Part shown: one piece after another, positions 33 through 61,900 of the stretch
Position numbering within the stretch: position 1 is the stretch's first letter
Layout of the letters: the number at the start of each line of letters is the position of its first letter
NCBI RefSeq assembly: GCF_024713975.1
Contig: NC_091095.1
Coordinates: 19,438,501 to 19,502,500 of the forward strand
DNA from: Paralichthys olivaceus
Taxonomy: Eukaryota > Chordata > Actinopteri > Pleuronectiformes > Paralichthyidae
DNA length: 64,000 bases
Reading direction: 5' to 3'
The notes under the pieces: model-generated
What the model saw: only the letters and a program-made list of their open reading frames with translations
What the model was told of the DNA's origin: nothing
Database searches by the model: none
Translations under genes and position numbers: made by a program

Positions 33-3000
33 CTTTGCGTTGGCCTGTCTGGACATCGGCTCAGGTGTGGTTGACTGCTTGTGTAAACGTGGTTACAGTG
101 GATCCACATGTGAGAGGTTAGTTTGCTGGTTAACCGAACACATACTTTATATTTCACATGCATTATAATTAAACATCAGGATCCTTGGTGCACCACAACC
201 TGCATCCTAACCCCTATTGTCCTCTGCAATACATAATGTGGATATGCAGGTCTGCCTCTTAAAGTAGAGAAATCCTAAGCAGCATTTTCCTTCTTGTTTT
301 TCCTCTCTTTAAGATGTGCACATGGTTACTACGGCAATCCATTGGTGCCTGGAAGCAGCTGCAAGCCATGCAACAGAGGGGATGGCATCAACATTTGTAA
401 TCATCTTACTGCAGGTTAAAATACATTTTCATATACAAATACAAACATAGTTATTATGTTTTAAAGGGTTAAAGTGATTTGATGTTATATTAAGGTCTGG
501 GAACTCATGAGACAGAATAAAGATGAAATTATCAAAATTTAAGTTACCAGCTGAGATATCCTGAGTATGGATTCAGCTCAAAAACAGTGGTTTCTGTCCG
601 ATAAGAGTCACAGAAGACATTATACAACTGGTTAAGGATATTTCAAAATCATGTAATTTGATACAACACACAACAACTGGTTCCAGCAGCTATGATCACT
701 GCCACAGCTGTGGTTGTAAAGAAAATCATCAACTCAGAAAAAAAAACTAAACTAAAAATCGTTTATTTACTGACAGACTGTGACAGTTGCACTTTGTCTT
801 TATGGGCTGACTTGGAAAAAATGGACAATGGTCTGATTTGGCTGGAGCAGCAGCTGAGGAACAACAGTCTTGTCTTTGGTTCAAACTCACTGCTGAACAA
901 CGTGGAGACTAACATCTCTAAAACCAAGGTACTCGTACATGGAGCCATTATGAATCTTTATGCTTAATAAGCTAACATTTAAAACATCTATTTAGTCACA
1001 TAATCCATGTTCAGAGTATTTCTGCCCTGTTTTCCAGATTCAGTTTGCGAGCTACGACACTGCTGTGAGACACCTGGAACCAGAGGTTGAACAGCTGGAG
1101 GCAGATGTGAATGTTGACGGTGACGACTTGAGTGAACTGATTGACAAGGTTCACGAAGTAAATTTTTCTTCAGTTAATCAGAGTAAAATTCAGGAGTTAA
1201 ACGATGAATAGTTTTGTGAATTGAAATTACTGTTTCAATAATGCCGGAGGTATCTCTACAAATTGATCATGTCATTATCAAAGAGATCTCACAAAGCGAC
1301 AGCAATAAAACTTAGAGTTTATAAAACTATTTTTGGTGCAGAGTTAAAATGATCTGGAAACATTATAATCTATCATCAACTTTCAGACTCTTCGATTTGA
1401 ATCAGATCTGGAAAAGGTTTTGCAGAATGTGAATCAAACCAAGTTGAAGGCCGATGATCTTCTTTCTGAAGCTGAATCTCTCTTCACAGTCATACGAGGT
1501 ACAGCACTCAAATATGAAGGTTACATTGTTGTGGCACTCCACCACTGCTCTGATGATGGTGTCACATCTCATATCAACAGAAATCATATATATTGATAAC
1601 ACTGAGTAATTGTAATGGATTTAAATTCAGTCTGATCTTCCCTAGCACTTGTGTCCGGGAATTTGTGGGAAACTGAATTATTGGTTATGTCAAAGTGATC
1701 CTCTACACTGTGATGTATCATCAACACTGTTATCTCTGTTATTGTGGTTTGTCAGATTTGATAAAGCAGCTGTCTGTGGTAAAGCCCAGGGGATCAATCA
1801 CTCTCTCCCTGAACGACAAAGTCAGGATGGCGGAGGAGGCTCAGCGCATCGTGCAGGAAATGAGACAGAGAGGCTGCAGTGCGCAGAGGGAGCAGGAGGA
1901 GGCACACAAACGTAAAACATTTTCTTGCAGAGCTTAACATATCTGATTAATTACTTCGTCGTTTTATTCCAGCCATCTTTCGAAAAAAAAAAATCTTTAG
2001 CTGCATATACACTTTTCATTGTGCTTTAAAATGGAGAGTTACAGAGAAAACCACTTGACTGATGCACTGATGAGAAAGTCAGTAACATCACGCTCATTTC
2101 TGCATGGTAAATTTGAAGCGACAGCCAGCATTAGGTTAGCGTAGCTTAGCATAATAACTGGAAGCAGAGGGATATAGCGAGCATGACAACTTGAACCCGG
2201 AGTTCAGTTCTGGACTATTTCTTGGCTGGGTGCATTGACTTCTTTAAAACTAAGGTTGGTAATCCTGGAAAAGTCATGAGGTGCAGACTACACTATTAAA
2301 TAGGCATAGACTCGAAGGAGAACTAAATTCATTGCTTATTAATGAACCGTAAAGGTGCTAATAGGTCGATTGTGTTAGCTGCTGCACTTTGTATGCTGAG
2401 CTAAGCATCAAACTCTCAGCAAGAAAACAAATAAACATATTTCCTGAAATGTCAAACTATTTGCAGAAGGATACACCAAAGGAAGAGAAGAACAATCTGC
2501 ATCATATCAGACCTGGATGAAACCGATTGGGCGATATCCAACCATTATGATATATGTCGCAAACTCTGTATGTTCTCCACAGCGTTGAACTTCATCCACG
2601 ACAACATGACAAGCCCTGCACTGAGTCGGACGTCAGACTCTCTGATGGTCTCTGTCCTGTTTCTGATGGAACTGACTGAGCTGCTGTCAGAGGCAGAGGA
2701 CAGAGTCAACAGGACGCAGAGCCTGAACCTGAGGAGTCACACTGCTCTACAACGTCTGCAGGTGAAATGCGCCACTCGATTACTGTGGCATATACTTCAG
2801 ATGTACACAAAAATGTTCTGTAGTCTTGTTTGTCTTCACCTGTCTCTGTTCATCATTTCATTTTCAAACTCAGGTGGAAAGAGAACAGAGCTCACTTCCT
2901 CCTGTGACTGAAATGACCAAAGATCTGCTGATAAACATCATGGACGTCTTCTTATTGCTTGAGGAAATTAAAAAAGTAAGCTGCCATATTTTACCACCAT

Positions 3001-4349
3001 GATTCCACAAGACAATCTTCAACAAGACAATTTGATTTGGAAACTGAATTTATTATATGTAAATTGCAGGAATTTGAGAACCATGCAGGTCAACTGGATG
3101 GTGCCAAAAGGGAACTTGTCAAGAAGTTTAATAACATCTTCCAAATTAAGGCCAAAGTGGAAACTGTCAACAAGGCCGAGGAACAAGCAGAGCAGCTTAA
3201 CAAAGATGCAGCAGAACTTCAGTGAGTTTAAAAAGGAAGAAAAAAGGAGCCTAGATATAATTACCATAAAGACAATGTGTTTATGTTGACATAATGTATT
3301 ATATGACTTTGCAGAATGCTTCATAATGCTATTAACAGCAATGAACGGCTCAGAGTTATGAGTGATGGAGATTTTATCAGCATCATAAAGGCCATACAAG
3401 AGACAGAAATAGCAGCTAATCAGTCCAGAGAGGCTGCTTATGGAGCTTTAAAGGTAACTCTGTTGTTATTAATGCTGCATGATGTGTTCAATTAAATGTT
3501 TAGTTGTATAATGTTAATTTAAATTCATATCAATATTATTCTCTTACTGTAAACTAGGATGTGCAAGAGGCAAGTCTGGACAAGGCCGAAGGACTCAATA
3601 ATAATTCAAATAATTTGCAAACAGAAGTCGACAACTCTCAGGGTGACCTGAAACGTGTGTAACAAGCATCATTTGTTACAAGTCACATGAGTTATTTTAA
3701 TTTGAACACACAAAAATTAAATGCTGTTTGATTTTTTTTGGACAGAGCTTTCCCATACAGTGAACGCCTGTAGAGACCGCGTGAAGAGGCAAAAGGAAAA
3801 AAGAAGATCACTGAGAATGAGAATCACAGCCGTCACTGATGACCTTAAAACAAATAGAGGTCAGTGGATTTCAAGTGAGCAGATTATTTACTGCAACTAC
3901 AGCACAGCAGATCATCATGGTGTTTTAAATTCCAGATGACACCACACTCCTGATAGACTCGGCGAAAAAAGCGGCCTCTGCGTCTGCCTCCACAGTCATT
4001 CATTTAACAGATAGACTGAGGAACATCAGCCAGGAGGTAGAAAGAATAACTCTGAGCAGAGTCAGTGTCAACATGGACAATATGTTCGTCGATGTAGAAC
4101 AATCATGTGAGTATTTAACAGTAAGAATCTGTTATTAAATTCTAACAGCGCCCTTTTCCCTTATATTTGTTAATTATTTTGAATGTATGTGTTTCAGTGA
4201 AGAAATTGAAAATCAATCTCCCTGTGTTGATGAACAACCTCAAACAAGTTGAAGCTCTCAAAAGGAAAGCGCCCCCTAGTGGCAACATGACAGAAAGCAT
4301 CTTGAAAATCAAGGACGTGATAAAGGAGACAAGAAACTTTGTTAACAGG
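33..4349 (+). CDS. lama3: lama3 exon block: last LE module and coiled-coil domain II/I
   Basis: Exons: 33-116, 314-414, 777-928, 1038-1157, 1387-1498, 1756-1911, 2583-2761, 2874-2975, 3070-3221, 3315-3453, 3558-3654, 3746-3859, 3936-4106, 4198-4349. The first two encode cysteine-rich LE sequence (VVDCLCKRGYSGSTC, then CNHLTAG). The third starts DCDSCTLSLWADLEK, the usual opening of laminin alpha domain II with cysteines for interchain bonding. The rest are Lys/Glu/Leu-rich heptad sequence expected to coil with the beta and gamma chains. The exon 1038-1157 could instead end at 1148 (also phase 0); I prefer 1157 because GAA|gtaaat is the better donor. The join 1911 to 2583 is supported by phase and coiled-coil content but is the least certain. 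Confidence 0.88.
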
Positions 4350-7300
4350 GTAAAGTTTTCCCTTGAATCTGATGTTTCTTACCTGTCAGCTTTGATTTAA
4401 AGAGAATATAATCAATATCAATGACGATGGAACAAATAATGATGAACTGATGAAAGATTATCACCCGATCCTTTTTCGTCAGCTCTATGGAGCTTTAAAG
4501 TGTCGTTTGACTTATTTTAGTACAAAAACTAAAAATAATATCTACTGTATTTATTTTCTTTATACATTCATATTTACACGGATCTTCTTACAGCTCTCCA
4601 TCGCCACAACCTTCAATGGAAAAGGCCACATTGAGCTTCATCCTCCGAGAAACCTTGAAGACATAAAACCATTTACAGCTTTCGACCTGCTTCTCAATCA
4701 TCATCAAACCAGTCCCTCCAAGCCTGACCACAGGTGAAAGCGACAACGACAGAACAAACGAGGAGATGTCAATCTCTTTGTTCTCTACTTGGGCAACAAG
4801 AACGTGAGCGGGCCTCCTTGTGTTTCACAGGAAGTCAGGATCTTTTTCAGAATATCTATATCTTTATTTATCTCATTTTATTTACAGGCCTCTGGAGACT
4901 ACATTGGGATGGCGATCAGAAACAACGTATTGATTTGTGTCTATAAATTGGGTGGAGTTGTCCATGAGGTGGAAACCAAGCACAAAATAACTTCGACCAC
5001 CAATGTGAACGCATCAGACTTTGACAGGATTATCTTCTCCAGGTATGTGAAATACTTTTAGAGAGCGAGGAAACTTAGTTTCCTCTACATGTAATCAGTT
5101 TTGTGATTTTCTCTGTGTTCACGATTCCTGCAGAGTTTACCAAGATGCTGAAGTCAAGATCATAAAGAACTTCACATCACAGAAGCCCATCAGCCTCGCT
5201 CCTTATCAAAACCTTCCAAACACGATGAGCAGTGTCCTCAACCTGGACCCAGACAGTGTTGCTTTCTACGTGGGTGGATATCCTGACGACTTTACGGTAA
5301 TAACACAGCTGTTATTTCATTATGTCTGCATGGATTGACTTCTTACACCACAGAAACAGAAGACGGACAATCATACAAGGCTTTATCGATCTGAAGTGAC
5401 AGCCAGTAAGATCTGAAAAATCTCAAAAACACAATAAACAGTAAACAAGCCTGTGCACTCATTGAATCAAACTGCCTTATAAAGCCTTTTTCTAGAAATA
5501 AAAAAGTATGATCATTTTGACATCATGAGTCTTATTTTTGACCACTTAATACAAATACTTTTTCACTGGGTCAAAATTCTGAATCAGGCAACTTTAAGAT
5601 TAAGTTTATATTTAATAAATCTGAATTTTAACTTCTTACTTTTGACTTGGCGTCTCATCATTTTCGCAGACAATCTCATATATTTGACCTGGTATGTCAG
5701 AATGAGATTATTCTCTCCTATAATTTTGAATTAGTATCAAATAATTATTACTAAGTGAAACTATTGATATGATAAGTAAATAGTAAGTTTAATACTGTGC
5801 ACATAATTGCTAGTTACATAATTTTTTTGAATTTTGATTTTTTTTTTTTTTTTTTGGGTCTTTTATCTTTTACGTTTTTTCTTTTCTTGACAGAAATAGG
5901 CTTCCATATGTAATTGACACAACCGAAAAAATCCCACCGAGCAGTTTAGAGCACTGATGAAGTTGAATCCAGAGAGTACAGAAGTTCCTCACTGACCTTT
6001 TTGACTGTTCAGTGGCAGAATAATGAGACTGTGCTGCAATGGTTACGAGTTTTAAAAAAGGAAACAGAAATCTGACCAATTATTAACAAACCATTGGCAA
6101 AAAATATCCAGTGTCATGAATATATTCTTATTGAAGTGTTGTTGAATGTTCAGTCCCTGTTGCTCTGACTCCTCCAGCCTCCACTGCAGCTGCGTTACTC
6201 CAGATACAGAGGAGCCATGAAACTCTCCTACATCAACGATCATCCTGTTTGTCTGTTCAACTACAAACATGCAGTCAACATGGACACTAGGCAGCCTCAT
6301 ATTAAGTACGTTTTAAAAATGCACTGTGTTTTTAGACGTTTGTTGTTGCAGTCACAATGACGATTAATTAATTTTTCAATTGGTTCAGGATTCCACAAGT
6401 GGAGGTGTCAGATTACTACGATGGAACAGGTTACCGCATGGCGTTCATGAAGGAGTCGGGCAAGAAAAAGAGACAATTGTTAAGGTTTCACACAAACAGC
6501 AGAGAGACAGACGCCTTGTTATTCTACATTGGAAATGAAGTATGATCTCTTAAATGGAACTGAACAGATTTGCAGCTGCACAGCTCAGACGCAGACTCAG
6601 TGTTGAGCTGTGTGTGCTCTATAAAAAGACTGATCTTGTGTTTTATGTTGCAGGAGTCTTTCTTCTGTGTGTTTGTGGAGAGAGGCTCCCTGGTGCTTCA
6701 AGGACAACAAGCAGGTCAACAGCTCAGAGCTCAGAGTGCGGAAAAAGTGTCTCTCTTTGTAAGAGGATCTAAATATAGTTACGCACCGTAATGAACACTA
6801 AGCAAAGCAAACTGAAACTTCTGAATGCATGAATGTAGTTGTTCCATTTATAAACTGTTCTACTTAAAAAAATGTCTCCTGTCTCAGGACCAACTCTTTA
6901 CAGTCACTACAGCAGAACGATTTATTGTGCACTACGGACGACAGCAAATCTCCACGGATCACATTCATACAAACTACATGACTTATTACATCGGGGGTTT
7001 ACCAGCACAGCTCAGGTTGAGGTAACACAACCGATACTGTACATACAGTGTTAACAGCTTTAGCTCATCAGATTAACCCTTCCCACTGGTTTCTGTGGTT
7101 TCTGTGTCTGAATTTCAGGCACAACATCACAGCTCCACCACTGAGAGGATGTGTGGATCACCTGACAGCAGACGGGGAGATTGTTGAGTACAACAGGACG
7201 ATAGGTGTCAGCGATGGATGTCCAGTCTCACTACTGGTAAACTGACAAAAAGCGATGACCAACCATACACGGCTGAATGAATTTGACTGAACATTGTCTT

Positions 7301-10300
7301 AAAGGAGACAAATCACACTGATATTCTGTTCTGTCTGCTCTGTGCTGATTGGTCAATTGCTTCGAGTGTGTGACGAGGGGCGAGCCACATTAGCAGCTAG
7401 GTGTGCATTTGTGGCGTTGTGATTTCAAAATACTCCGGAGGTATCAGCTGGACTTACTGAAGTTTTCTGTTTTCACTGCAGACTTTTGGCTCTTTAACTT
7501 TGTAGAACTTTTACATTTGCAAAAAACAGACACAAGACAAAAGAGGAAAGAAACACTGGAAAAAACAATCTCCTTTAAAATACAGCCTCTATCACAGGCT
7601 CGAGATCAGTATTGAAAATAAGAATCCTTAAGTGGGAAATCAGAAAGCTTAAAGGTAAAAGCAAATTACAGCGTTTAAAGTGAAATGTGAAAAATGAAAA
7701 ATGTAATTACATCAAATAGAATAGAACAAATTGTCATTATCTTTTTTTGTAGTAGAAATTTAAGTGAGCAGCACTTAGACATGTGAATGTAATATGTGTG
7801 TTTCTGGTTTGTGCAGAGTGTCCGTGCAGCGACACGGAACTCAGCTCTGTCCATGGATTCCCTGACTGTGTGGGACGAGCAGCCTGTCAGAGTCTCTCTG
7901 GGCTTCAGAACGTCACACAGACACGCTGCTCTTCTCAGGAGCAGCTCTCAGGTCAGCTCTCCCTGCAAGTGTCAGATTTAAATGATATAAACTGATCAAC
8001 ATGACTCTGTTAGTCTTCTCTCATCTTCTACAGGGCTCCACCTCTGCCCTGGACCTTCAGCTGTCCCTGGATGATGGCTATGTAATATTTAACAGCAGAA
8101 ATTATACACTGAGGTCTGATGAAAGATACAGTGATGGAAAGTGGCACTACTTGTCCGCAGTGAGGAGACCAACAAGGTAAGATGTGCCCTCCGTTTGTAC
8201 AACAGTTGTACCTTTACTTCATTTAAATAAATAAAAAGGCAAGTTGTCCTGATTCTCTCAGGTTGGAGCTCAGCATCGATAATGTGAATGTGACTCAGGG
8301 GCGATCACACCACATCAGGCCAGTGGATCAAAACTCACAAGGAAAGAAATTCAAAGTCTGCATTGCTAACCTTTACACCAGGAGGTTTGGATACATTATA
8401 AATCGTTTACCACTGTTTTAATAGTACTGTTGCAATATAGATGCTATGCAGTGTGGTTTTGTCTTATGACAACAATAAAGGAGAATTCTGTTCATTTTCA
8501 ACTTCTCCTAGTTTATAAATGTGTATCAAATATGAATGATACCCACAAACACTTTTGAAACCATTCGAGTAGATCGGCTACGACACGGTGGAAGTGGCTA
8601 CGATGTAACCTTATGTAGCAACTGCGACAGTCCAAGAAATGTTCACCCTCAACATTATAAACCTGTGATATTAGGGTTTAGCAATACATGCAACTCTACC
8701 CAGTTGCAAGGGAATTTTTTGTTCCTCTCTTGGGCTTTTGTATGTAGTGTAGTGTCCGTTCAAGCTCCTTTGCCCTCAACCAATCAGGAGAGTGCATGCA
8801 TTGTAGTCAGTATACAAGCTGCTGACTGTATGCAGTTTGTAAGCTGCGAGGAAGTGAGCATTCAGCTACCACCTCCTGCTTTATGCACCAGCGTCACAGT
8901 ATCATAATCTATGTTGGGCTGTATTCTTCAGCTGGACCCTGAGTCTGAATAATAAAATATCACTCACAAGTCTCGTGAGTCTTGAATGAAGATGGAGGTG
9001 GAAAGTGAGAGAGAGTTGGAGAGTCTGGATTTTACTCAGAGAAACTGTTATGATCTAATCTTTTTCTGAACAATGTTAATGAAGTATTTAACTTTGATGG
9101 ATGTCCCAACTTGATTGAGCTGCAGTATACAGATGAAGAGAAAAACTGAGCGAATGAGGAGAGAGAGGACACAAGCAGAGGAGGTCACGCAACATCAGGT
9201 GGACTGTCGACTGTCATAGTTGCCCTATAAGATTACATTGTAGTCACTGCTGCCAGTGGGGGTGATCTACTGGATCGATTTCAAAAGTTTTTAAAAGTAC
9301 TACTGATTTACACACCAACATTTATAAACATAGTGCCCAGGGTTGACAAACAGCAGAATTCCTCTTTAAGTAATGTTTTATAAAATCTGTAATTTGTGCC
9401 AGGCCTGAGCAGAGCTTTATCCCTGCGGATCTAAGCTCATTTTCACACATGGGAGACAGTGTTCTTGGCCGGTGCAGTCTCCATAGTTCACCACATCCTG
9501 AGCATTTACCTGCACCACTGCTGAAGAAGCACCACAAATACAAACCTGTGAGCATAACAAGACGCCATCATTACAGCACCACAATAATGCTACCGTTGCT
9601 TTCAGTACTAGATAGTGATGCAGGTTATTTCTCCACTTCCTGTCAGATTCAGGCTCCTGTGGGCAGTCAGTGTGTACACCGAAGCTCAAAGCTCGGTGAA
9701 CACCAGCTCTATGATGATCACAGCTGGCTCAGTTACACTCTGCCACAACAGGACCTTAACTACAGGTAATGTTCGCTATGGTTTCATAAAAACATCCATC
9801 TATTCATTCACATGAACAGTAAAGAGGGAGACCTCACTGGTGTGCTCCTCTTGTGTCTCAGGCCTCACTTCTCTCTTGATATCAAGACCAAGTCGTCCAA
9901 AGGTCTGATCCTCCATGTGGCAGGGAGAGGAGTTGTGCCGCTGCTGGCTCTGTACATGGCCAATGGCAAGATCAAGGTGTCACTGGGCCAAGACAGAATC
10001 ATCCAACACAAGCAGAAGAGCAACGATGGGAACTGGCACAGAGTAAATGACCTTTTGCTAACCCCTACCCTAGTAACTGTTGATGTACCTGTTAAAAGTG
10101 TGCACACAAGATATTGATAAACGTTGATCTTGTTAAATAGAATGAAGAGCACATCTCAGAGGCTTAAAGCTAAACTGTGAGTCTTTGTCAACTTGCACAC
10201 TGTGAGTTGGTTGATGACTATATCCAGATTTTTTTCTAACATTTCTAGGGTCTCAGTAGAGCGCATACCTCTGCCAAGGCCCTTAAACTCAATCTGCCCC

Positions 10301-12304
10301 AACTTGCACACACTTATAGACATCAGTCCCCCAAATATGCATTTTTTCATCAAGATCCATTAATCATTTCCAGGGAAATCTGTGAAAATGTCAAATCTTG
10401 CCATGACTGTATCCTTCCCTGACTCATACTGCTCATACATATTTTTCTGACCTAACCTGCAACAGATTGGTCAGGAAAACAAGTAATTAGTTAGCTACCT
10501 GCTTTATTTTTAAGGTAGAACAATTTGCTTAGGCCACTATGCTAAGGTAGTAGTGAATGGCTATGCAAGTGTTGGAAGTTTACATTGGAGACATTGAAAA
10601 AACACACAGCTTAATCCATTCTTATATAAGGAGGTTGTTATAAGTCATTTTAGTAAAGACTGAAAACTCAGTCTAAAATGTAGAGAGATCACTGATGCTT
10701 TACAAGAACTTGATATGACATCAAAAATGCTCACTTGAATAAAAATTGTGTATAAAGTACTTAAGCCGATAAAGTGTTCTAGTTTCCAGGTTTGCCCTTG
10801 TGGCCCACAGCACATGCTTTTTAGTGTTTCACATTAGTTGGCCCAAGCCCATGCATCTCTGCTCATGCCATAGATCCACATAAAAGTAGCTTTTCAAGAA
10901 TATGGGAACGCTTTAAAGATTTAAATTCATTGAACAAATAGTAATAACTGATTCTTTTTGATGTTTAAGGTGTCTAAATTGGAGAATTGGAGACCTACAA
11001 ACTCTTTGCCCTCCGACTTGTTTTGATTCACCCGACTTGTGTGACAGATTGTATGTGTGTGTGCAGGTTGAGTTCAGTGTGGAGAAGAGCACCTTTCATC
11101 TGCTGGTTGATGGAGTCCGTGTGACTGATGGTCGACTACCGAACAATGAGGGATCATCTTTAGACTTTCACAACCCGGTGTATCTGGGAAGTGATCTAAA
11201 AGGCAGAACCATAAAAGTCTGTATCAAACCTCAGTCGCTGTTTGATTATTCTTTAAAAGTCATGTCACAAGACCATGTCGTCTCCTCCCACAGGGACAAA
11301 ACATTCCCATGAACAGTGTTACCGGCTGTATAAGGGGTTTCAAAATGAATGATGTCACTGTTGGTGAACTCGAAGGAAGTCATAAAATATTACCCTGCTT
11401 CGATGGGCTCATGGAGATGGGGACGTACTTTGGTGGCGGTCACATCGTCTTGGGTTTGAAATAGTATTTTATAGAATCTGATTCATTGCAATTTACATCA
11501 ATATTAAATATCTAAAAAATAACATTTCTATTCTAGATAATTACTTCAATGTTGGCTCCCACTTTGTGTTGTCCTTCGAGCTGCGTCCTCAACACCTGAC
11601 AGGTCTTCTTTTCTATGCTCAAAGTGACAAGGCCAGCTTTAATGTGTTCTTATTGGAAAACAAGGTAAAACCTCCACTCTTAGACTGAATAATGACAGCT
11701 GATCAGGCAGAGATGAAAAAGAAAAGCTGCATTGAAAGACCACATTGACTGACTGCTGTCTATTACCAGGTGGTGGTCAGCGTTAATGATGGTCACAGAG
11801 CTGTCGGTGTCTCTGTGACTCCTCGTGAAAGTCTTTGTGATGGAAAGTTTCACATGGTCACAGGTACGACTTCACATGATGACGACATTACACAAACCAG
11901 ATCATATTTGAGTGGCTCTACGTTTTAAATTGTTGTGATATCATCCATCAGTCTCCAAACAGCGTGAAGTTGTCAAACTAGCGGTGGACTCCATGTCTGA
12001 GGAGAAAGCTGTGGCCATTACATCCACCTCACACGCAACCACACTGGATTCACTTTCCATTGGAGGTAAATCCATCAAACATTTCACAGCATGTCTTTCA
12101 CCAAATATTAGCTGCTATTATTTCACCCTGACCTGAATCTTCTCCTCTCTCCATTCAGGGACAACAACGTACAGCAGAGTCCCTGTGTCCTCACCATTTG
12201 TGGGCTGCTTACGAAATGTGAAGATCAATGGAAAGCCTGTTGTATATAAAGCAGAATCTAGGGTGTATGAGCCTGTGAGCATCGATCGATGCCCTAAAGA
12301 CTAA
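33..12304 (+). CDS. lama3: Laminin subunit alpha-3, 3' part of gene (34 exons, 5' end outside window)
   Basis: Secreted basement-membrane glycoprotein; the alpha chain of laminin-332 type trimers, which bind integrins through their LG modules. The visible reading frame has 1,544 codons including the stop. It contains the end of an LE (EGF-like) module (codons 1-61), the heptad-rich domain II/I coiled coil (about 62-610, opening with the alpha-chain motif DCDSC) and five LG modules (611 to the end). I recognise LAMA3 by stretches shared with the human protein as I remember it, such as FVLYLGNKNAS, LNLDPDSVAFYVGGYP and DGTGY, and by the neighbouring osbpl1a and impact. All introns are GT-AG and phases agree throughout. 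The gene continues upstream. One in-frame TGA lies at 4735-4737; every other exon is open. Exons are listed in the three block entries that follow. Convergent with osbpl1a. Confidence 0.94.
2120..2450. repeat. Fish repeat with ttagcttagcataa core (copy 1)
   Basis: Core gttagcgtagcttagcataa then ctggaagcagagggatatag. Similar cores occur at 16140-16440 and 63655-63740. Fills most of the lama3 intron 1912-2582. Confidence 0.5.
4594..9547 (+). CDS. lama3: lama3 exon block: LG1-LG3 modules (integrin-binding part)
   Basis: Exons: 4594-4803, 4888-5042, 5134-5296, 6178-6305, 6389-6539, 6654-6758, 6888-7021, 7119-7236, 7817-7951, 8034-8176, 8262-8384, 9403-9547. LG1 runs to about 6305, LG2 to 7236, LG3 to 9547. 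LG2 ends with the usual module pattern RGCVDHLT ... SDGCP. LG3 carries FKVCIANLY and later LGRCSL. In laminin-332, LG1-3 is the integrin alpha3beta1/alpha6beta4-binding unit and stays on the mature chain after proteolysis. Oddities: a TGA codon at 4735-4737 inside the first LG1 exon, and LG1 lacks the cysteine pair that the other four modules keep (GCC Ala at 6214-6216, CAT His at 6298-6300). Confidence 0.9.
4735..4737 (+). other. lama3: In-frame TGA codon within lama3 LG1 exon
   Basis: Exon 4594-4803 is 210 nt, phase 0 at both ends, and reads lama3-like sequence on both sides in the same frame (FNGKGHIELHPPRN before, GDVNLFVLYLGNKN after). Codon 48 of the exon is TGA, in the context CAC AGG TGA AAG CGA. 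One C-to-T change from CGA (Arg) would explain it and would suit the surrounding Arg/Lys-rich loop. No GT-AG intron of plausible size removes it while keeping the frame. Confidence 0.85.
5297..6177 (+). other. lama3 intron (881 bp), no other feature
   Basis: AT-rich, with a T17 run near 5838-5855. Nothing coding is visible. Confidence 0.6.
7300..7620. repeat. Fish interspersed repeat, partial copy, in a lama3 intron
   Basis: Shares gattggtcaattgcttcgag and the gcagctaggtgtgcatt stretch with the outer parts of the composite repeat at 14883-15955. The intron 7237-7816 holds nothing else recognisable. Confidence 0.45.
8385..9402 (+). other. lama3 intron (1,018 bp)
   Basis: Holds a 123-codon frame at 8536-8907 that has no family resemblance and no splice context. 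The GC-richer middle may be an old interspersed repeat, but I cannot name it. Confidence 0.5.
9647..12304 (+). CDS. lama3: lama3 exon block: LG3-LG4 linker, LG4 and LG5, stop codon
   Basis: Exons: 9647-9765, 9862-10042, 11067-11216, 11294-11453, 11537-11664, 11770-11863, 11952-12065, 12159-12304. The stop TAA is at 12302-12304. LG4 shows FSLDIKTKSSKGLILHVAG, NDGNWHR and the cysteine pair in VTGCIRGF and ILPCFDG. LG5 shows FELRPQHLTGLLFYAQ, LCDGKFH and the pair in FVGCLRN and DRCPKD. In mammals the linker between LG3 and LG4 is cut by BMP1-type proteases and LG4-5 is released; the fish linker is encoded by exons 9403-9547 and 9647-9765, but I cannot identify a cleavage site by eye. Confidence 0.92.
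10043..11066 (+). other. lama3 intron (1,024 bp) with repeat family B copy
   Basis: Apart from the repeat at 10230-10445 nothing is recognised. Confidence 0.6.
10230..10445 (-). repeat. Teleost interspersed repeat family B, copy 1
   Basis: Contains actcaatctgccccaacttg, tcagtagagcgcatacctct and tttcatcaagatccattaat. It is the reverse complement of part of the family represented at 18300-18650 (shared gaggtat-g-gctctactgag). Intronic in lama3. Confidence 0.55.
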
Positions 12305-14222
12305 TGCCATAATCAAAGTAATTATGGATCTGACCCCTTATCATAAAAGGCATACAAGCTTTGCCAAAACCCATTAAGGGGAAAAAATCGGACATTTAGA
12401 GAATAAAAAAGTCGCAATATCAGGCGACATGTCATTTTACAGGGGGACTATCAGAAGATAAATCTGTCACCTGCGTCAGAATGAATAATATGGAGCATCT
12501 TGTTAGGTTGTACTACAGTAAAGGTTTCACAAATAACAAAATACTTAAAATATTTTGTCTCATCTGCACTACATTATCTTTGTGTTTGTTTTATCTTGTG
12601 AAATGTTTGCACATCTTTTTGTTAATCTTGTTTTCTCTTGGTTGTTTAGAGTCTTTCTGGGATCTATTCTCTTGGGGATTGTATCTTTGTTGTTAATTGG
12701 CATCGTTTGTGGTCATTTGGTTTCTTTGTCATTATTTTACATCTTTTGTTTTTTTGTGTGGTCATTTTAAAGATCTGTTTTTGACTCCTCTAGAAGAAAT
12801 ATTACCAATATGGGGCTGTACATAGAGGAGCAAAAAAAGGTCATGTTCAAACAATAACATGATCCTCTTAGTGTCTGCACTTCACTGCACTAAAACAACA
12901 ACAGCTGTACTTGCTTCTCTTTTCACCACAAAAGAGCAAAACTACTTGACTCTTCACTTACCCTAACTGCAAGTTATAAAAAAAAACACTTAATCCTTAT
13001 GGAGTGGGATATGCAAATATTGACACTAAAAACCTTGCTCCATCTCTTTCAGTATTGAAAAAATAACAGCAAAAAGCAAAGGTAAACTGCATTTACTAAA
13101 TATTAAAAAGTGAACTGCCCCTTTAATGCTGGAGCATTTGTTTTATTCCTTAATATCATTATTGAATTATTGTTCCCTGATATAATTTGTTAAACTCCAT
13201 TAGCACATACACTGAGGGCTGTCTCCTATACGCTACACATTTATTTCACTTGTTGCATGAGGGTGTTGTATCTTTTTTTTCAATACACATTTTGTATAAC
13301 TGAAAAGTGGGGGATAAAGTGTTCCACTGGATTACAGCATGTCTGTCTAATCCCCAGGTTAATAGTTGGATGCAGTTCTGAGCTCACGTTTATTATCGTT
13401 ATTAAATAAAGCATTTGATCAGATCCCACTTTATTTTCAGATTCCTCTGAAATTTGTCCTGCACTCCTATCAAACCGAACATAAAAAGTAAAAACAAACA
13501 TGAATACACTGAAGGGATTTATTTTAAAGTGATTTTTTCATCATTTGACCGAATCACACACAACCAACTTTAGTTCTGTTTGTCACACATTTTACACAAC
13601 AGCAAAAAATATGAATAGACCTCACTATAAAAGTTTCAAGTGTGTAATGATGTATGGAGGATCACAGTTGAAGGCCTCAGTGGACAAAATGATAAAAACA
13701 ACCAAAACATGTGCCAGTCAATTCTTAAAGTCAGTATACATGTGTAGTAGTGATATAGAAATTATACTATATGTTAATGATGTTTTATACACCTTATTGT
13801 TTCATAAAGTAAAAGACATAAGGAGAGATACCTTAACGTCACATGAAATGAACTGTTAGTGGTCTTGTGAGAGGAAATATAAATGAGGTCACTGACGGTT
13901 TGTGTGACGTATATACACAGATACACACAGTCTGAACGTTTAAAATACTACAGCTGGACATTAAAACACATGTGCATCAGCACCTCACCACTGTCTGTTT
14001 AAAGTCCATCATCTTCTCTCAGTATAAATACAAACATCACCTTTCAGGAAGTCTAAATATTGATTACTGACTTTTTATGCAGTTTCACCATAATAAAGTA
14101 GATTAAGGCCACACAGTTTAACTAGATTGTTTGCATATTACTTGGAGTTATTGTAGCTCTCATTAAAAACAGCTAATGCTGCTCTGTACAGAGGACACTG
14201 TGCAGTGTGCAGGAAATGTCTG
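12305..14222. other. lama3-osbpl1a tail-to-tail spacer (both 3' UTRs)
   Basis: No coding sequence seen. It should hold the lama3 3' UTR on the plus strand and the osbpl1a 3' UTR on the minus strand. Minus-strand AATAAA candidates (TTTATT on the plus strand) occur at 13518-13523 and 13389-13394. The sequence is T-rich at 12540-12780 and otherwise featureless. Confidence 0.6.
12402..12407 (+). promoter_or_regulatory. Candidate poly(A) signal for lama3
   Basis: AATAAA about 100 nt after the lama3 stop codon, in the A/T-rich sequence expected of a short 3' UTR. Chance occurrence is possible. Confidence 0.5.
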
Positions 14223-17200
14223 TTAGTAAATGTCTGGGAGCTGGCTATATTTCCTGTCCCAGTATCCAACAGAAAAGAGCCAGTCCTGGGAGCTGTTGTG
14301 AGGGTTTTGACCTTGTTGAAACCACCTGAAAACACAGCAGACAAACATGACATTCAGTGACCTGAGCCACAAAACCATAATTCAACAAATAACACACGGT
14401 GAGGGAGGTCAGGCTTGCTGGTTTGCTTTTTACTAAAATGAATTGTTGTGTTATTATATCTCTAGTGCATGAAAGCAAGGAGGGGAATTATTCAGAGGGA
14501 GGACTCCTGTAATCTTTGAGTAATTCCATAAAGTGCCAGTAAGTGGAGCTGCCATGCTGGTGGAGAGAAGAGCAGATGAAACACAACTGTCTCCAAACTG
14601 TGAGTCTCTACATCTGTGAATCTCTGCTCTATCCTAACAGAAAGCAGGATAACAGGAAGAAGTGCTGGGAAAAACACACAATCACTGCAAACATTTCAGA
14701 AGAAATCAGTGAAATAACAAGCAGCTCTAACCTCGGACCCAGGGCAGGATTCCTAGAATCATCAAAGAGAGGATGCAATGGAAAAATAAGACAAGTGAAG
14801 AGAAAATGGAGATTAAGCTTGAGAATTTCAAAGCAATTAAGAATGTAACAGTGCAGAAACAGATGATAAAATGCAGTATTAAAGGAGACACATCATGCTC
14901 ACATTCAGGTTCATAATTTTAACTTGGGTTAATGCTCAGAAAACACAACACTGTCCTCACACTGTCCAATGCTGCAGCTCCTCTTTTCAGCCTTTGTCTG
15001 AAACACTTGGTTTTAGCTCCTGTCTCTTTAAAGCTCTGGCCTTGATAAAGCCCAGTTATCTCTGGTTGGCCTGCTGGCCCACTTTGTTGTGTTTGGTCAA
15101 CTGTTTCAAGCTTGTGTAGGAGATGTCGTCCTCTGCTGTCGCTGCTGCTGTGTCTCAATTCAGGGACTGCATCCTACAGAGGACATGGCCTACCCAGCCC
15201 ACGAAGACCGCCTTCATCGTGGGCCGCGCAGACTGTGAAGGGCCAAACTGAAATGAAACGGTCTGGTCTACAGAGGATTTCTGTGATCAGCGTCACCAGC
15301 TTATCAACAACGCTTATTGCTGTTGCCAAGCAACAGAGCTGCAGTTGGACACAAGATAATTGCCTTTGTTTTTTAACATGTGTATCATTGGCTGTAAAAA
15401 GAGAGTTAAAGCTTGAAAGTCAAGATTTGGATGTCTTGTCTCTTTGCTGGTGCCAGGACCCTTTTAAACAACAGTTTGTCACTGAAGCACAATTAATTCT
15501 GGTAAGGATCCACCCTTTGGAGCCTTTATTTCTCTGGGGATGGAAGGATGCCACAAATAAAGTAGCTTTCCAAATGGGGTCTAGTTGCACGGCTGTGACA
15601 CAATCGGACCTTAAATACAGCCTCAGAGTGATTCCGCTACTGAACTGAAACATAGCTTTTATATGGCTTTGTTAGTGGGCGTGCCAGACTAGCTGCTAAG
15701 AGTGCAAATGCAGGGCATTTCAATGTAATGTGGCGCGATTCCCACTTCTGCAGAGGTGTTCTAGGTGTTTCACGAGCAGTGTTTTCTTCGGGGGAGAGGA
15801 GCTCCTTCAACACATGTTTGTTGGATTCGCTCTAGAGTTTACGAGGCTGCATTTAAACATCATGAAAAAAGAGTCCTCAACACTCAACACGAGACGTGAA
15901 GTGCACAATCAGGACTCAAGTGAGCGGAGGATCCTTAATACATTATCGTAAGTTTGTCACCTGCATCATAACCATCCCAATAAAAAAAATGGAACAAATG
16001 AATGTGAACTAGTTCATTTTTGGAACTGTGAACTTAGTTCAGAAAGTTAAAGAATTTACGATAACTGTGAACTAGTTATTTTCATCCGTATGAACTGAAC
16101 TTTGAACTAATTCTTGTTAAGTGTCAACTGGCACAACACTGGCTGCTGGATAGCTTAGCATAAAAAGTGGAAACATCTCGTCTGCAGTGTTAAAAGGGAA
16201 CATAATACACCTCTGAAGATCACTAATATTCTATGTCCATTTTTTGCAAATATATACAAAACCTGATTTGTGAGGAAAAACGTGCCAGACAACACATTTA
16301 AACCTTTTCTGTTTTTTGACAGCAAGCTTAGCAAACCAGCTCTTGGTTGTAGCTTAATTAGCAGAAAGCTATACGTTTGATAATCTTGTCATCTAACCCT
16401 CAAAAAGAAATTCAGTTAAAGAGTGTATTTCCTGAAATGCTGAACTAATCATTTCTAGACACAAACTAGATGTAGCTATAAGTGCATATGAAGTAAATGT
16501 GAGTTATGTGAAAACCAGTTTAGTTTAACAACATTTAACAAGGGGCTGACAATGTTCACACTGAATATTAAATATCAGTTTCTTACGATCATTTGGAACT
16601 GGTTTGTTCTCTCAGTCACAAAGACTGAATTAACTAAACTTATATCACCCTGAAAATGTACTGCATTCGTTAACTGATTGATTAAAATCTTGTTTACTGA
16701 AGCAATTACGAGGAAACACTTGTTCTGTCCAGTTCCTCTCTCAGTCTCACCTTGCTTTCCACTCCTCGTCAGACTTGGAGCGGTTCTTACGAGCAGCTCT
16801 CTGTTTTTCCTCGAGCCTCTTCTTCTCCTCACTGGCGAGATCTATGTGGTATAAATAATAATACTATTATTCAGACTACTGTGAGCATTATTTCATGTTA
16901 TTCACATGTATATTAAGTAACAGTTATTACCGATGTCGCCGTTCTCCATGGCTCGTATGTCTGGTCTGAGCCTGCAGTCTGTCTGAGGAATGACTCCCTC
17001 CATCTCCTTACGCAGCTCATTCAGCTGCATGGCGAAGGACGTAAAGCTGTACATCTGGCATTGAATACATTTTTGCATGTTAAAACATTTTATATAGTGA
17101 TATAAATAATAAATAAGATCTTCCAACCAACACTTTCTTGTGGTTCAAATCTGGTAAATAAGGGTGACCAGGTTTTTGACATCAGGGCTCAAAGGCTTTG

Positions 17201-41800: not shown

Positions 41801-44800
41801 ATAACTTCAATTCATGTTTACAACTTGGGTCTGATAAAAATCACTGTTCGTCGTCTAGGTAATTATTAGATAAAGTCTTACTCAGATGAATTTACTTCCC
41901 TCCTCGACTAATGGTGTGCTCCATCTTCTACTAAGATGCTCCTCCATTAGTGATCTGTCTGATGCACTTTAATGCTCTGCAAAGATGAACACAAAGGCCT
42001 TTAAGGACATTTTAAAAACCCATCTGTTTGAGACTTTGAGTGACTGCTCTGAATTAAGATCGATATAATGACTTCTGATACCGTGGCAGAACCTTTTAAG
42101 GTGTAAAAAGACTAAAAAACACCCTGAGTAAAAAAATTTCCCCAAGTCTCAGCGTGAATCAGGTCTTCTGGGATCTGTGGGTGGGTGGGTGAGTGGGTGG
42201 TCTGTCTGGGTTTTCTGTATCCAAGCCCAGCAGTATTCGCTATTGAGGCAGATGGTCTCCATTGAGCAACAAGACTGAAAACTATTAACTATCCTCCCCA
42301 TTGTTGTGAGATATGAATCCTCCTCTCTCTGCAATTCCAGTGATAATACATATGACAAGTCACAGCACCTTGGGTCAGCAGAGTGGGTCTAATGGCTCAT
42401 TCCCTTTCAGATTAGTGGGACATGGTGGAGAGAGGGAGAAAGAGAGAGGTGGTGAGTTGGAAGTGATAAGGTTGAAGATGCACATTTCACAGAGAAGGAA
42501 ACGAAAAGGGAGTAAACTGGAGTGATGATGAAGTTTGATTGAATGAGGTCAGATACAAAGGAAAGGATGAAAAAGCATATTTACCTTATTACAGCAAGCC
42601 TAGAGTTCTCAGCAGTTCGACTTTGATCATTTCATTTCTTACTATTACAGTCATCTAAGTATTAGCTGGAAATGTATTAATAGGTTTGGTGATAACATAT
42701 TTTTCATGATAATTTGTCAATGGAAACCAAAACCAATCCCATTGAGGCCTGGATTCAAAACCAACAAAACAGTAAAATATTGAAATCACAGGCTGATCCA
42801 GCTTGTGTGAATTTCCTCACAGCAACTTATAACTTTACTCAGTATTGTGTATGGTCCCTGCGTGCATGTGTGCACTCCCGACAATGTTTGGGCATGCTCC
42901 TGATAAGTCAGCTGTTGGATCAGGGCACCAGTGAGCTCCTGGACACCGATGCATAACGTCTCATAGGTGCTCAATTGGATTTAGGTCAGAGGAACGTGAG
43001 GGCCAGACAATGGCATCAATGCCTTCATCATCCAGGAACTGCCTACACACTCTGGCCACATGAGGCCAGGCATTGTTCTGCACCAGGAGGAACCCAGGGC
43101 CCACTGCACCAGCGTAATGTCTGACAAACACTCTGAGAATTTCATCCCAGTACCTAATGGCAGTCAAGGTACCATTGGCTATGACATGGAGGTCTGTGCG
43201 ACCCTCCAAGGATCCGGCTCTCATCTGTGAAGAGAACGGGGCACCAGTGGCGGACCTGCCAATTCTAGTGTTCTCTGGCAAATGCCAATCAAGCTGCTGG
43301 GTGCTGGGCTGTGAGCACAGGTCCACTAGAGGTTCTCGGACCCACATGCAGCCCTCATGGAGTCTCTCTCTGTTTGGTCACACACCAGTAGCCTGCTGGA
43401 AGTCATCATGTAGGGCTCTGGCAGTGCTCCCCCTGTTCCTCCTCGCACAAAGGAGCAGATAGCGGTCCTGCTGCTGGGTTGATTCCCCTCTATGGCCCTG
43501 TCCAGCTCTCCTTGTGTAATCTCCTCCATGTTCTTGAGACTGTGCTGGGAGACACAGCAAACCTTCTTGCATGTATGGATGTGCCATCCTGGAGGAGCTG
43601 GACTACCTGTGCCACCTGATTGGGCTGCAGGTACCGTCTCATACTACCAGCAGTGACAAGGACTCTAGCAGAACACAAAACTAGAGGAGAATCAGTCAGG
43701 AAGAATAAGGAGAGAGCAACTGTCTGTTGCCACCACATGTAAAACCATTCCCTTTTTGGGGGTTGTCTGGATTTTACCTCTCCATTGCACTTGCTGTCAC
43801 TTTTATTTGCACCAAACCATTTACAATCAATTGTGTGTCCTGAATGGACAGATTGATAACCCTGAAGTTTAACTTATGTGTTATACTGTAATGATCAAGA
43901 GTTCCCTTTATTTTATTGAGCAGTGGTATATACACTGTTTATTTATGATAGATATTGTTGTGTTTGTGTCTTTTCTATCATACATAGAGCACTGTGCAAA
44001 CAAGACACACCATTACTATGTCCCCTGACATGTAAAACTTAGGGCTAAAAAGCATCTACAATGGATTCCTAACTTTGCCTTAATCTCATTGCTTCAAGTA
44101 ATAATTTAATTCACGTCTGATGAGTGAATCATTATCAAGTCAGATCTTGTCTAGTCTAGACTGTGCTGACTGTTCTTGACCTGTAAACAATACGAATGAG
44201 GAGAACATGTCTCCATCACCAATGGGAATTAAACTTTTGGTAATCTGAAAACCTTAAAAAACAAAAATCAATGTACTGTTGCCCTGGTAACATCAGGTAT
44301 AACAAGGAACATGGGGTCTGTAGTCTAACTTACACACTGTACACGATCCTGCTGCTAGAAATACTCACAATATTAAAGGTTCAGTGTGTAGAATTTAGTG
44401 GTGAATTTGCATGTTGCAGCTGAACACCCCTCACCTCACCCTCCCCATCCTAACATGAAGAATACCCATGATAGCCTTCAATTTTCATGAAAACTAAAAA
44501 AGGTGTTGGATGACTAAAAAAACGTGGCAGCCTCCGTAGAGAGGTCCCCCTCCATGTAAATATAAAGTTTTTAAATATAAAGGGCCCATTCTATCGTGAA
44601 GAAAACAAAAATTCATACAATTTAGGTGAAACACACTAGTGAAAACATCATTAGGATTATTGTATATTCAATTTCTGCCAATAGATCCCTTTCACCTAAA
44701 TCTTACACACTGAAGCAGTAAAGTCACTGGTCACTATTTTCCCCTGTTTTGGTAACATTTGCTTAGAAGCACAGAGTCCAGCTGCTGTTTGACCGTTCTG

Positions 44801-57347: not shown

Positions 57348-58003
57348 CTTCGTGCGCTTTGATCGCAGACTTCAGTAGCTGCGCTGGCACAAAGACGCAA
57401 AACTATCAAGCGCACAGAAATCACCTGACGAAGACCGGAAATTGTTGCATCTCTTTGTCTCGGGAAAAAAAGCAAAACATTTTTCAAATGATTTACGGTT
57501 TGAATCATTCTTGAATGCATGAACACCTGAAACTTTATTATGGCTGAAGAAGAATAAGCTCATTGAATATAAACCCCTCTTGGTTTCTTTACCTGACAGA
57601 CCTCCCTCTCATCAACTGGTTTCTATTATTAGTTTTATTTTGAAAATGTGAGCGGATATGGCCCTTATTTTCTACTCCAGCAGTCTTAACACATGAGACA
57701 AAATAAAGTATGATCTCGGTGGTACCCGCACATCCAGCTGTCAGCTGTGTGGCACACACTGAAGAACTGGAATACACCTTTTATTACTGATTGAAAAACA
57801 GCAGGCTTGAACTCCAGCTCGTGTCTCTGCATCTCTTATTAATGGACTGAAAATGGACATTTGGATAAAAGTGTCTTTATTGAACCACAGCTTCTCGCTC
57901 ATGTGTGACTCTCTGGTAAAGTGGAGCGCACGGGCTGGACTCGGACTTGTCACTTGTGCGTGAGATGAAAAAGCTCTTCGAGGGTTTTCACGTTAAATTC
58001 ACA

Positions 58004-58938
58004 ATGAGCGCGCACATCCCGGAGTCCAACTCCAGCGGCAACTTGACTCCCGCGGTGACCGGGGCTGGCGCCGCGTTCCAGGGCTACAAGGTGATCATCC
58101 TGTCGGTGCTCATGGTGGCGCTGGTCGTGGTGGTGGTGGCCGGGAACGCGCTGGTCATCACGGCTTTCATCGTGGACAAAACCCTGAGGACTCAGAGCAA
58201 CTACTTCTTTCTGAACCTCGCCATATCTGATTTTCTCGTGGGTGAGTTGATGGTGCATCTTCATGTCTCTTTGTGTCTCCTCAGTTTCTTGCTTTTGTTC
58301 CCGCCTGTGAATGAAACACCACTAACATGCTCATTGTGCACACCCACCACAACGCATTGTCATTTTCCTACAATATAATTATAGTGATTCACTGTTGTTC
58401 AAGTGTGGCTTGTTCCTGATGACCTTACCGTCCTTGTGTTGCTGTGCATTTGCAGAGAGCCACTATTTTATATCTAATCAGCCTCTCACACCCCTCTATA
58501 GTGTGCTGCTCTTAAACCTGCAGCATTGGATCAATTACAGCCTCCTCCTCAGTGATGAACTATGAATGCACACTGCTTTTGCCATCACTCATTGTGATGG
58601 AAACAAACAGAACCTGAGTAATTTTTGTATCAAATTGAACAGGTGTCACTCCCAGACAGTCTGGAGAGGTGTGACTGTTCACACTGGATTTGTTCTGGCA
58701 TTGGATCATCATGCAGAGTGTGTCTGTTTGTGTGTGTTCCAGGTGCCTTCTGTATCCCGGTGTACATCCCGTACAGCCTGATGGGTCGATGGATGCTGGG
58801 TAAGGGTCTCTGCAAGGTGTGGCTCATCATGGACTACCTGCTCTGCGCTGCATCAGTCTTCAACATTGTCCTCATTAGTTATGACCGCTTCCTGTCAGTC
58901 ACAAGAGCTGTAAGTACAGGCTGAAGAGGTGCTCATTA

Positions 58939-58986
<48 letters not shown>

Positions 58987-61900
58987 TACTGACATACTGA
59001 CACAGTCATTTACATTCACAGATTTCTGCCTCTTTAAAGGGATAGTTCACCCTCACCACTCAAATGAAAATGAACTCATTATCTACTCACCACTATGCCG
59101 ATGGAGGGGTGAGTGAGGTGTTTACCCCTGAAGTGTTTTGTGGACTCAAACACTTCATTCACCCCTCCATCATTAATTTTGGGTAAACTATCCCTTTAAG
59201 AGTGTGCAACTTTAATCCATCATTTTCTTCCATCTATTAGAAAAGAGATTTGAACTGTCTGACTAATCTGGTCAGTAAATATTGTCATGACATGAGCTTA
59301 TAACTCAGTAGTCCAGAGGTATGGACATAAAGGCACATTTTACTGTAAGAGTACCACCCACTTACTAAATAGTGCACTACTTTCACTGTCCAGGTTATTT
59401 TATTGTCCCAATTCTGAGTGTGTATCCACAACATTGTGTCTTCAAAAATTGCACAAATTTGTGGTGTTCATGCCTTTTGAGCTAATCTTCTTTCTATTAA
59501 CAGATTAATAGAAACAGTGATAAACCAAAATTATGATGATTAACACGTTTCCAAAATCAACATTTAATGCTAGCTGATGGTTAAACTAGTAAGTGTGTAT
59601 TACATAGGAAGTAGTGAATGAGAGAATGAGAGTGTAATATCAGACAGTTAAAGTTAGAAAAAATGTACCATGGTAACGTCATAGTCTGTTTTTAGACACA
59701 ACCTTTGCCTTTCACAAATGAACAATGCAATGTGTTCTCATTGTTTTGCATCTGTTGCGTGTCGTAACTTCATGTACTCGCTCACTTAAATTTTCTGAAC
59801 ATCTTCCTGCTGTATTCTGACATGTGTTCACTCTGACATTCTCCGGACATTTTACACGGGGTCTGACAGGAAAAATTCTGGAGAATGTCTGGAGCCACTG
59901 TCTCAGCCCCGCTGGATAATTTCAGGAGAAAGCCTGGTGTTCAATGCGTGTCTGATAGCATCAGTGGTGATGTTTCAGGGTAATTTGAGTTCGGGACAGA
60001 GGCTTTCCTTCCTTATCATCTTTTAGGAGGTGTAAGGTGTGGAAGATTTGGGTTGTCGAATGAAATATGCCGTTGAGCTGCTTTATGGGAAATAGAGTTT
60101 GGGATGTAGGGATTTTGGGGCTTGACTCACACTGTAGACCAAGATTTAGGTTGGATATCTCCGCCTCTGCTGCTTTGATTTCAATCATTCGTTGGTGAGC
60201 CCTTCTACCTTTAGGTGAAAGTGAGAGGGACTAAATGGCTGCAGTGCTCCTTTAAAGAGGGTTCTAACCAGAAAAAAAGAACAACCAGATATTTGTTGCT
60301 TCGTATGACCCTTTCATCGTAAAACCATTCTTAATATTCCATCATCATGATTTTTTGGTGTTGGACCCTATAGACTGTATGCCTAGTATTGATCATCAAT
60401 TATTAATTTGTTCCTGAGATTAAATCTGAAGATCCACCAGACAACATGATCATCTGAGCTTTATTTAATCATATTTATAGTCTCACAGCCTGTGTTATCT
60501 TTAATGATTTTGATTGACGTTTTAATCTCAGTATCTTCATACTAAATATTATTTATTAATGTAATAATCTTTGATCAGTAGTGAGCAGGATTTCTGTAAT
60601 TTAAAATGGAATTGCGGCTGTGCTTTAGGAATGAATTTTCAAGACTGGGGCCAGAATCTAGTTTTATCCTAAAGTGGCTGGCTCTATTGGAATTTGATTG
60701 ACTCCAAAAAACTCAGTTAATTCTTGATTTCCAGAAAGCCTTACAGTCGCAGAGCAGAACTACAAACAATCAGAGCAATTAATCATGCGATGCATAGAAA
60801 AATGAATTAACTATTTCAGGATTCCCTCAGTAGGATCAGATATCACAACTCAAAAACCTGTGACAGTGCAGTTGTTTGTTCTTGTTTTAGAGGGAAATAT
60901 ATTGTTAATATATTGTTTAGCACTGCCTGATAATGGATTCAACAGACCCCTCAATGTCACCAGCAGCCATCTTGATGTTAACAAAAATGCCTCAGCAGTG
61001 CTCCTATGTCCGTCAAACTGACCAAACCCGCCCCATTTTAGATAAATGATTGTGATTGGCCTGGTCTGAAAAGGGGGGGTTGTGGACCCATCTGTGTGCG
61101 CAAATAAACATGAGCTTGCTGATTGGTCTGGTTTCAAGGCTAATTTGCAACTGCATTGTCTCATGCTGACATACCCAGCTGTTGCCAATGCAGAGAGACA
61201 TTTGATGGTTTCTGGCAATGTAAAGATGAAAAACTACAACAACAAAAAGGGGAGAGTGGAAAATAGAGGGGCCCTGCTCAATGATAGATGTTAGACTGAG
61301 AAGAGGTGAAGTGAAAATGGAGCAAGTGAAAACAGAATGAGCGATGGGTGATGACGAGGGAGGAGTGGATTGGGAGAAACCAGATGTCTCTTTCACACTT
61401 CTGATCAATGTGGCTCTCAGCCCGAATATATATGAGGCTCATGTGTCGGTTTCACTTACAGCGTCTCCCTGCTGCTCAGAGCATAATACAAACAGCGCTT
61501 CATTTGAACAAGACACTCAGAGCAGAAGCAAGTGCATTTGTCAATCTGATAAAACTGCATCTGAGCAGCTGAGGCTCTTTGATATGCGACAAATAGCAGA
61601 AGACTTTGTGTTCATGGTGTATCACTCTTGAGTCACACTTGTGTTTCTCTTTTGGCACAGGTTAAATACAGAGCACAAAGAAACATGACCCGCCAGGCTG
61701 TGTTCAAGATGGTGGCGGTGTGGGTGTTGGCCTTCATCCTCTACGGCCCTTCCATCATCTTCTGGGAGGCAATCTCCGGAAAGACCATGGTCCAGCCCCA
61801 CGAGTGCGAGGCAGAGTTTTATCACAATTGGTACTTTCTGCTCTGCGCTTCGACCTTCGAGTTCTTTACCCCATTCGTGTCGGTGGCCTTTTTCAACCTC

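Follow-up and report, generated by a model that had tools for sequence, protein, structure and literature searches.

In Paralichthys olivaceus, a lama3-type laminin alpha gene, coding for a protein that anchors the skin, carries a single in-frame TGA within the first part of its LG1 module and is free of any other disabling change over the part that could be read. The reading favoured here, which is given about an even chance of being right, is that one base of a functional lama3 changed recently to give a nonsense codon on the sequenced haplotype, and that this change is not fixed or became so only very recently. The gene lies in a window of 64,000 nucleotides (assembly GCF_024713975.1, contig NC_091095.1, positions 19,438,501 to 19,502,500 of the forward strand), which is the whole stretch of DNA that was analysed; its first modelled exon lies at the window edge, and the gene starts upstream.

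The gene model gives a reading of 1,539 codons including the TGA and the terminal TAA at 12302-12304 (1,537 sense codons), with all phases chaining from one exon to the next and 33 compact introns of 76 to 1,024 nt; this compactness and the gene content suit a ray-finned fish. Exon ends were set by eye on GT/AG and the model was then tested by script. Because the ends were placed by hand, the presence of GT-AG at 33 of 33 introns holds partly by construction and is not independent evidence, and a few ends, such as the exon 21 donor, could move by several bases; the real test of the model is that one set of exon ends produces a single open, laminin-like reading. In Pfam, the product matches Laminin_II (E 4.8e-15) and, over five stretches, Laminin_G_2 (E 1.4e-60), the coil and all five LG modules thus being recovered; Laminin_I fell below its cut-off (25.6 against 34.6 bits), and the exon 15-16 peptide by itself gave no Pfam match. 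A 316-residue query, built from exons 16-22 only, matched nothing in viral_contigs or genome_contigs, which is unsurprising for a vertebrate gene. The LG1 module is of the alpha-3/alpha-5 type, since among PDB sequences searched with phmmer human laminin alpha-5 LG1 (5xau) aligns at E 4.3e-24, against 0.0036 for alpha-1 and 0.019 for alpha-2. Alpha-3 versus alpha-5 is not settled by this comparison, no alpha-3 chain being among the six PDB hits of the LG1 query, and the assignment to alpha-3 is made because of the neighbouring genes.

Adjoining lama3 on the minus strand is osbpl1a, of which 380 residues from 10 joined exons align end to end with human ORP1 (E 2.3e-225 for the lipid-binding domain). 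One of two impact-type peptides matches UPF0029 (E 3.2e-12), and exons of a rhodopsin-type receptor lie further downstream. The human LAMA3 region at 18q11.2, which holds osbpl1a, impact and hrh4 as well as TTC39C and CABYR, fits these neighbours, the comparison covering the first three. The neighbourhood, with its osbpl1a, impact-type and receptor genes, agrees with the lama3 locus. Between the genes, an open stretch at 42964-43377 on the minus strand weakly resembles the DDE_3 transposase family (E 7.1e-05, 23.1 bits against a curated cut-off of 28.6) and is probably a Tc1/mariner-like element. Just 3' of the lama3 stop, Rfam gives at 12762-12855 on the plus strand a MIR5743 match of 32.2 bits, below the gathering score of 111; it is the only hit in 12290-14300 and is probably a repeat or chance.

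Table 1. Features of the lama3 locus, with positions in the window (a slash marks a splice boundary)
Feature	Position	Strand	Basis or remark
lama3-type laminin alpha gene, 3' part	33..12304	+	34 exons; laminin EGF-like, coiled coil, LG1-LG5, TAA
Exon 14, end of coiled coil	4198..4349	+	ends in phase 0; gene model
Exon 15, first part of LG1, 210 nt, phase 0/0, holds the stop	4594..4803	+	model, homology, site scores
13-codon insert relative to human alpha-5 LG1, stop inside	4720..4758	+	alignment gap, query residues 43-55
Donor-like CAG/GTGAAA overlapping the stop	4731..4739	+	scores 8.47, real exon 15 donor 7.01 (gene's own matrix)
In-frame TGA, exon 15	4735-4737	+	sequence and gene model
AG of cryptic acceptor; exon would resume at 4851	4849..4850	+	score 5.31; frame restored if joined to 4733
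Exon 16	4888..5042	+	phase 0 at start; gene model
Rhodopsin-type receptor exons, probably hrh4-like by position only	57920-62506	+	7tm_1 E 1.3e-27, last part

The TGA is the sole in-frame stop before the natural TAA, and 33 of the 34 exons have no internal stop, in accordance with the exon count of the preliminary description. That description had also given exon 15 correct splice sites and phase 0 at both ends, and here too it stands: the phases chain, and the acceptor atcttcttacag/CTC and the donor AAC/gtgagc, each scored against the gene's other sites, are average (ranks 17 of 34 and 14 of 33, respectively). Its claim of laminin homology in one frame on both sides of the TGA is likewise borne out by the alpha-5 LG1 alignment, for which the phmmer query was 218 residues with X at the stop and the aligned span was 4-214, and conserved LG1 residues go on in frame past the stop. 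A frame error by indels was rejected on these grounds, the remaining two forward frames of exon 15 carrying one and three stops while the residues that match alpha-5 lie in a single frame on both sides. No run of more than three bases occurs at the stop site. What the earlier reading of LG1 missed, its frame being right, is that the stop (query residue 48) falls not in matched sequence but within an insert that has no counterpart in alpha-5. To our knowledge, the insert is absent from human alpha-3 as well. It is basic, and of the gene's 12 CGA codons three, at 4741 and 4747 within the insert and at 4759 immediately beyond it, fall in the eight codons that follow the stop. A C-to-T change at a CpG in this arginine-rich stretch is a plausible source of the TGA.

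According to the favoured reading, such a C-to-T change would have created the TGA in exon 15, and, since 2,506 nt separate the stop from the last exon junction, nonsense-mediated decay would remove most mRNA of that copy; under the usual rule, a stop so far ahead of the last junction is expected to lead to mRNA decay. The preliminary description held that the chain would end before LG1 is complete with the loss of all integrin-binding modules, and at face value all LG modules would indeed be lost, but at that distance decay of the mRNA is the likelier outcome. In the 593-residue piece up to the stop the Laminin_II match runs to residue 575, and any chain that survived would thus retain its coiled coil and could enter a trimer, but would lack LG1-LG5. 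In laminin-511, docking on integrin alpha6 is by the bottom face of LG1-3 and above all by LG2 (PMC8241838), and because LG1-LG5 would be lost, a surviving truncated chain should not bind integrin. A second intact allele, or a very recent origin, would account for the lack of further decay of the gene.

The age of the damage can be bounded. In the part of the gene within the window, 562 single-base changes would make a stop, to which 132 invariant splice bases and frameshifts are added, and a unit of neutral divergence should then bring 481 to 850 disabling changes, according to the indel rate that is assumed. No disabling change besides the TGA was found in the 1,537 sense codons and 33 introns; neutral divergence is therefore bounded below 0.0035-0.0062 at 95% under assumed mutation and indel rates. 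If 2-5e-9 per site per year is assumed for the conversion to time, any loss of the gene is limited to about the last 0.7-3 million years, a figure good to an order of magnitude. The bound speaks against an old pseudogene, not against a new one. Unitary pseudogenes are recognized by several accumulated disablements, and the gene part in the window has one stop only. The earlier characterization of the gene as otherwise intact holds for that part.

The preference for an allele over an error is supported by the quality of the sequence: the window contains no N, and this, together with the end-to-end alignment of osbpl1a with ORP1, indicates good sequence, no frameshift being needed in the 34 lama3 exons or the 380 osbpl1a residues. 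The remaining neighbour peptides were taken from stop-free stretches and are uninformative on this point. In the TOPMed data, the mean number of stop-gained variants per human individual is 72 (PMC7875770), and when many genes are scanned a stop in a large one is thus to be expected; a lone stop of this kind, found by scanning many windows, needs no special cause. Two considerations count against the allele: a consensus base error would look identical, and the position of the stop in a non-conserved insert, with a coincident donor-like site, leaves a bypass by splicing possible. Among the matches listed on fish lama3 or on LAMA3 nonsense and exon skipping, no report of the allele was found, which is not proof of its absence.

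That the assembly has a wrong consensus base at 4735-4737, where the animal itself carries a sense codon, is unlikely though by no means negligible, and the weights placed on the allele and on the error are judgements rather than computed values. One substitution without other damage is exactly what such an error gives, but the freedom of the window from N and of both genes from frameshifts argues against it, as does the shortness of base runs at the site. Distinctly improbable is a fixed, very recent loss of lama3 in the species, that is, a young unitary pseudogene. A stop ahead of all LG modules would abolish their function; however, no second hit has accumulated, and the neutral phase would have to fit within the dating limit given above. 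A laminin survey reports one lama3 in Sebastes schlegelii and no expansion relative to zebrafish and other teleosts (PMC9504374), and a single lama3 in teleosts speaks against a fixed loss and weakens the earlier proposal of a recently silenced gene with a functional duplicate elsewhere. The zebrafish fransen mutant, with a nonsense change in lama5, dies at ~11 days (PMC2855323), which also tells against loss, though a different alpha chain is concerned. Recoding of the TGA by readthrough, selenocysteine insertion or RNA editing is scarcely credible. The one point in its favour is the continuation of the frame past the TGA, but no Rfam family reaches its gathering threshold in the window, and no SECIS was found up to E 1 in 12290-14300; Rfam includes SECIS families. 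The TGA is followed by A and not by the leaky C context, which counts against readthrough. The region around the stop has no special fold, behaving as its shuffles do (z -0.04, with 97 of 200 shuffles at least as stable), and RNA editing, one of the alternatives first put forward, accordingly finds no support.

Splicing offers two further ways around the stop. The earlier reading recognized the TGA but missed that its T also makes a donor-like site, with last exon base 4733, and that joining 4733 to 4851 removes the stop in frame. That the stop is bypassed in this manner is a long shot, and that a self-rescuing nonsense change has become fixed in the fish, leaving a lama3 with a remodelled LG1 segment that lacks most of the insert, is a longer one. 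The bypass would exchange exon 15 residues 48-70, which cover the greater part of the insert and the conserved stretch that follows, for 12 residues encoded in intron 15; after the join no stop precedes the natural one, the donor-like site outscores the exon's own donor, and the resulting chain is near alpha-5 LG1 in length here, as counted by eye. Four internal donor-like sites in exons 1-33 score at least 7, this one included, and two of the four have an in-frame open partner, in one case with an acceptor score of only -1.5. A first simulation found a strong in-frame bypass for 14 of 534 nonsense changes, 11 of the 14 being in exon 15 with the same donor. Outside exon 15, none of 514 simulated nonsense changes had such a bypass at donor and acceptor scores of at least 8.4 and 5.3, and three of 514 had one at 7 and 5; against this, the background grows to 22/514 at 6 and 4, 72/514 at 5 and 3, and 134/514 at 4 and 2 (all as minimum scores), and the cut-offs were chosen after the site had been seen. 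Moreover, the acceptor at 4851 is far weaker than those at 4831 (10.3) and 4888 (11.01), and the replaced stretch NLFVLYLGNKN is the part that matches alpha-5. Because these two stronger nearby acceptors are out of frame, with stops at residues 688 and 669, and because the cut-offs are post hoc, the bypass is retained as a testable long shot.

The other way, which is very improbable, is that normal transcripts leave out exon 15 and the chain lacks the first 70 residues of LG1. Exon 16 starts in phase 0, and exon 14 can be joined to it in frame with an open product; but a length divisible by three is shared by 11 of the 32 internal exons, which makes this no special sign, the splice sites of exon 15 are ordinary, and skipping would remove LG1 sequence that matches alpha-5. 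A mini-intron within exon 15 was rejected, because the in-frame GT..AG pairs that would remove the stop measure 51 and 54 nt, less than the shortest real intron (76 nt), and their donor scores -0.58. In-frame GC..AG pairs in the exon span 63-198 nt and were set aside; with the longer of them, LG1 residues matching alpha-5 would be lost. Retention of intron 15, whose 84 nt are open in frame, was rejected also, as the TGA stays.

LAMA3 nonsense alleles exist in junctional epidermolysis bullosa, a human disease with patients, whereas here there is one fish sequence. LAMA3 is among the disease genes for laminin-332 in that condition, and changes in LAMB3 are mostly nonsense (PMC12594917). For a bypass, a parallel is found in nonsense-associated altered splicing, such as the skipping of COL2A1 exon 2 caused by a nonsense change; in the examples cited (PMC6060985), single-base changes that create donors are intronic and the altered-splicing cases are reported from transcripts, whereas the lama3 candidate donor is exonic and its use is suggested by site scores only. 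The nearest known case to the lama3 TGA is zebrafish fransen (tc17), likewise a nonsense change in a fish laminin alpha chain, by which most of the C-terminal LG domains are lost (PMC2855323). It differs in that another alpha chain is affected and in that the mutation came from a mutant screen with a known phenotype, whereas the lama3 stop is known from sequence alone. The lone lama3 stop is most likely something fairly ordinary, either a recent faulty copy or a mistake in sequencing, and not the loss of a gene. An error would call for correction of the lama3 annotation, and if the bypass is true in RNA, it would be a neat example of a mutation that undoes itself. A real allele would amount to a naturally occurring lama3 null in a fish, with which the need of teleost skin for laminin alpha-3 could be studied.
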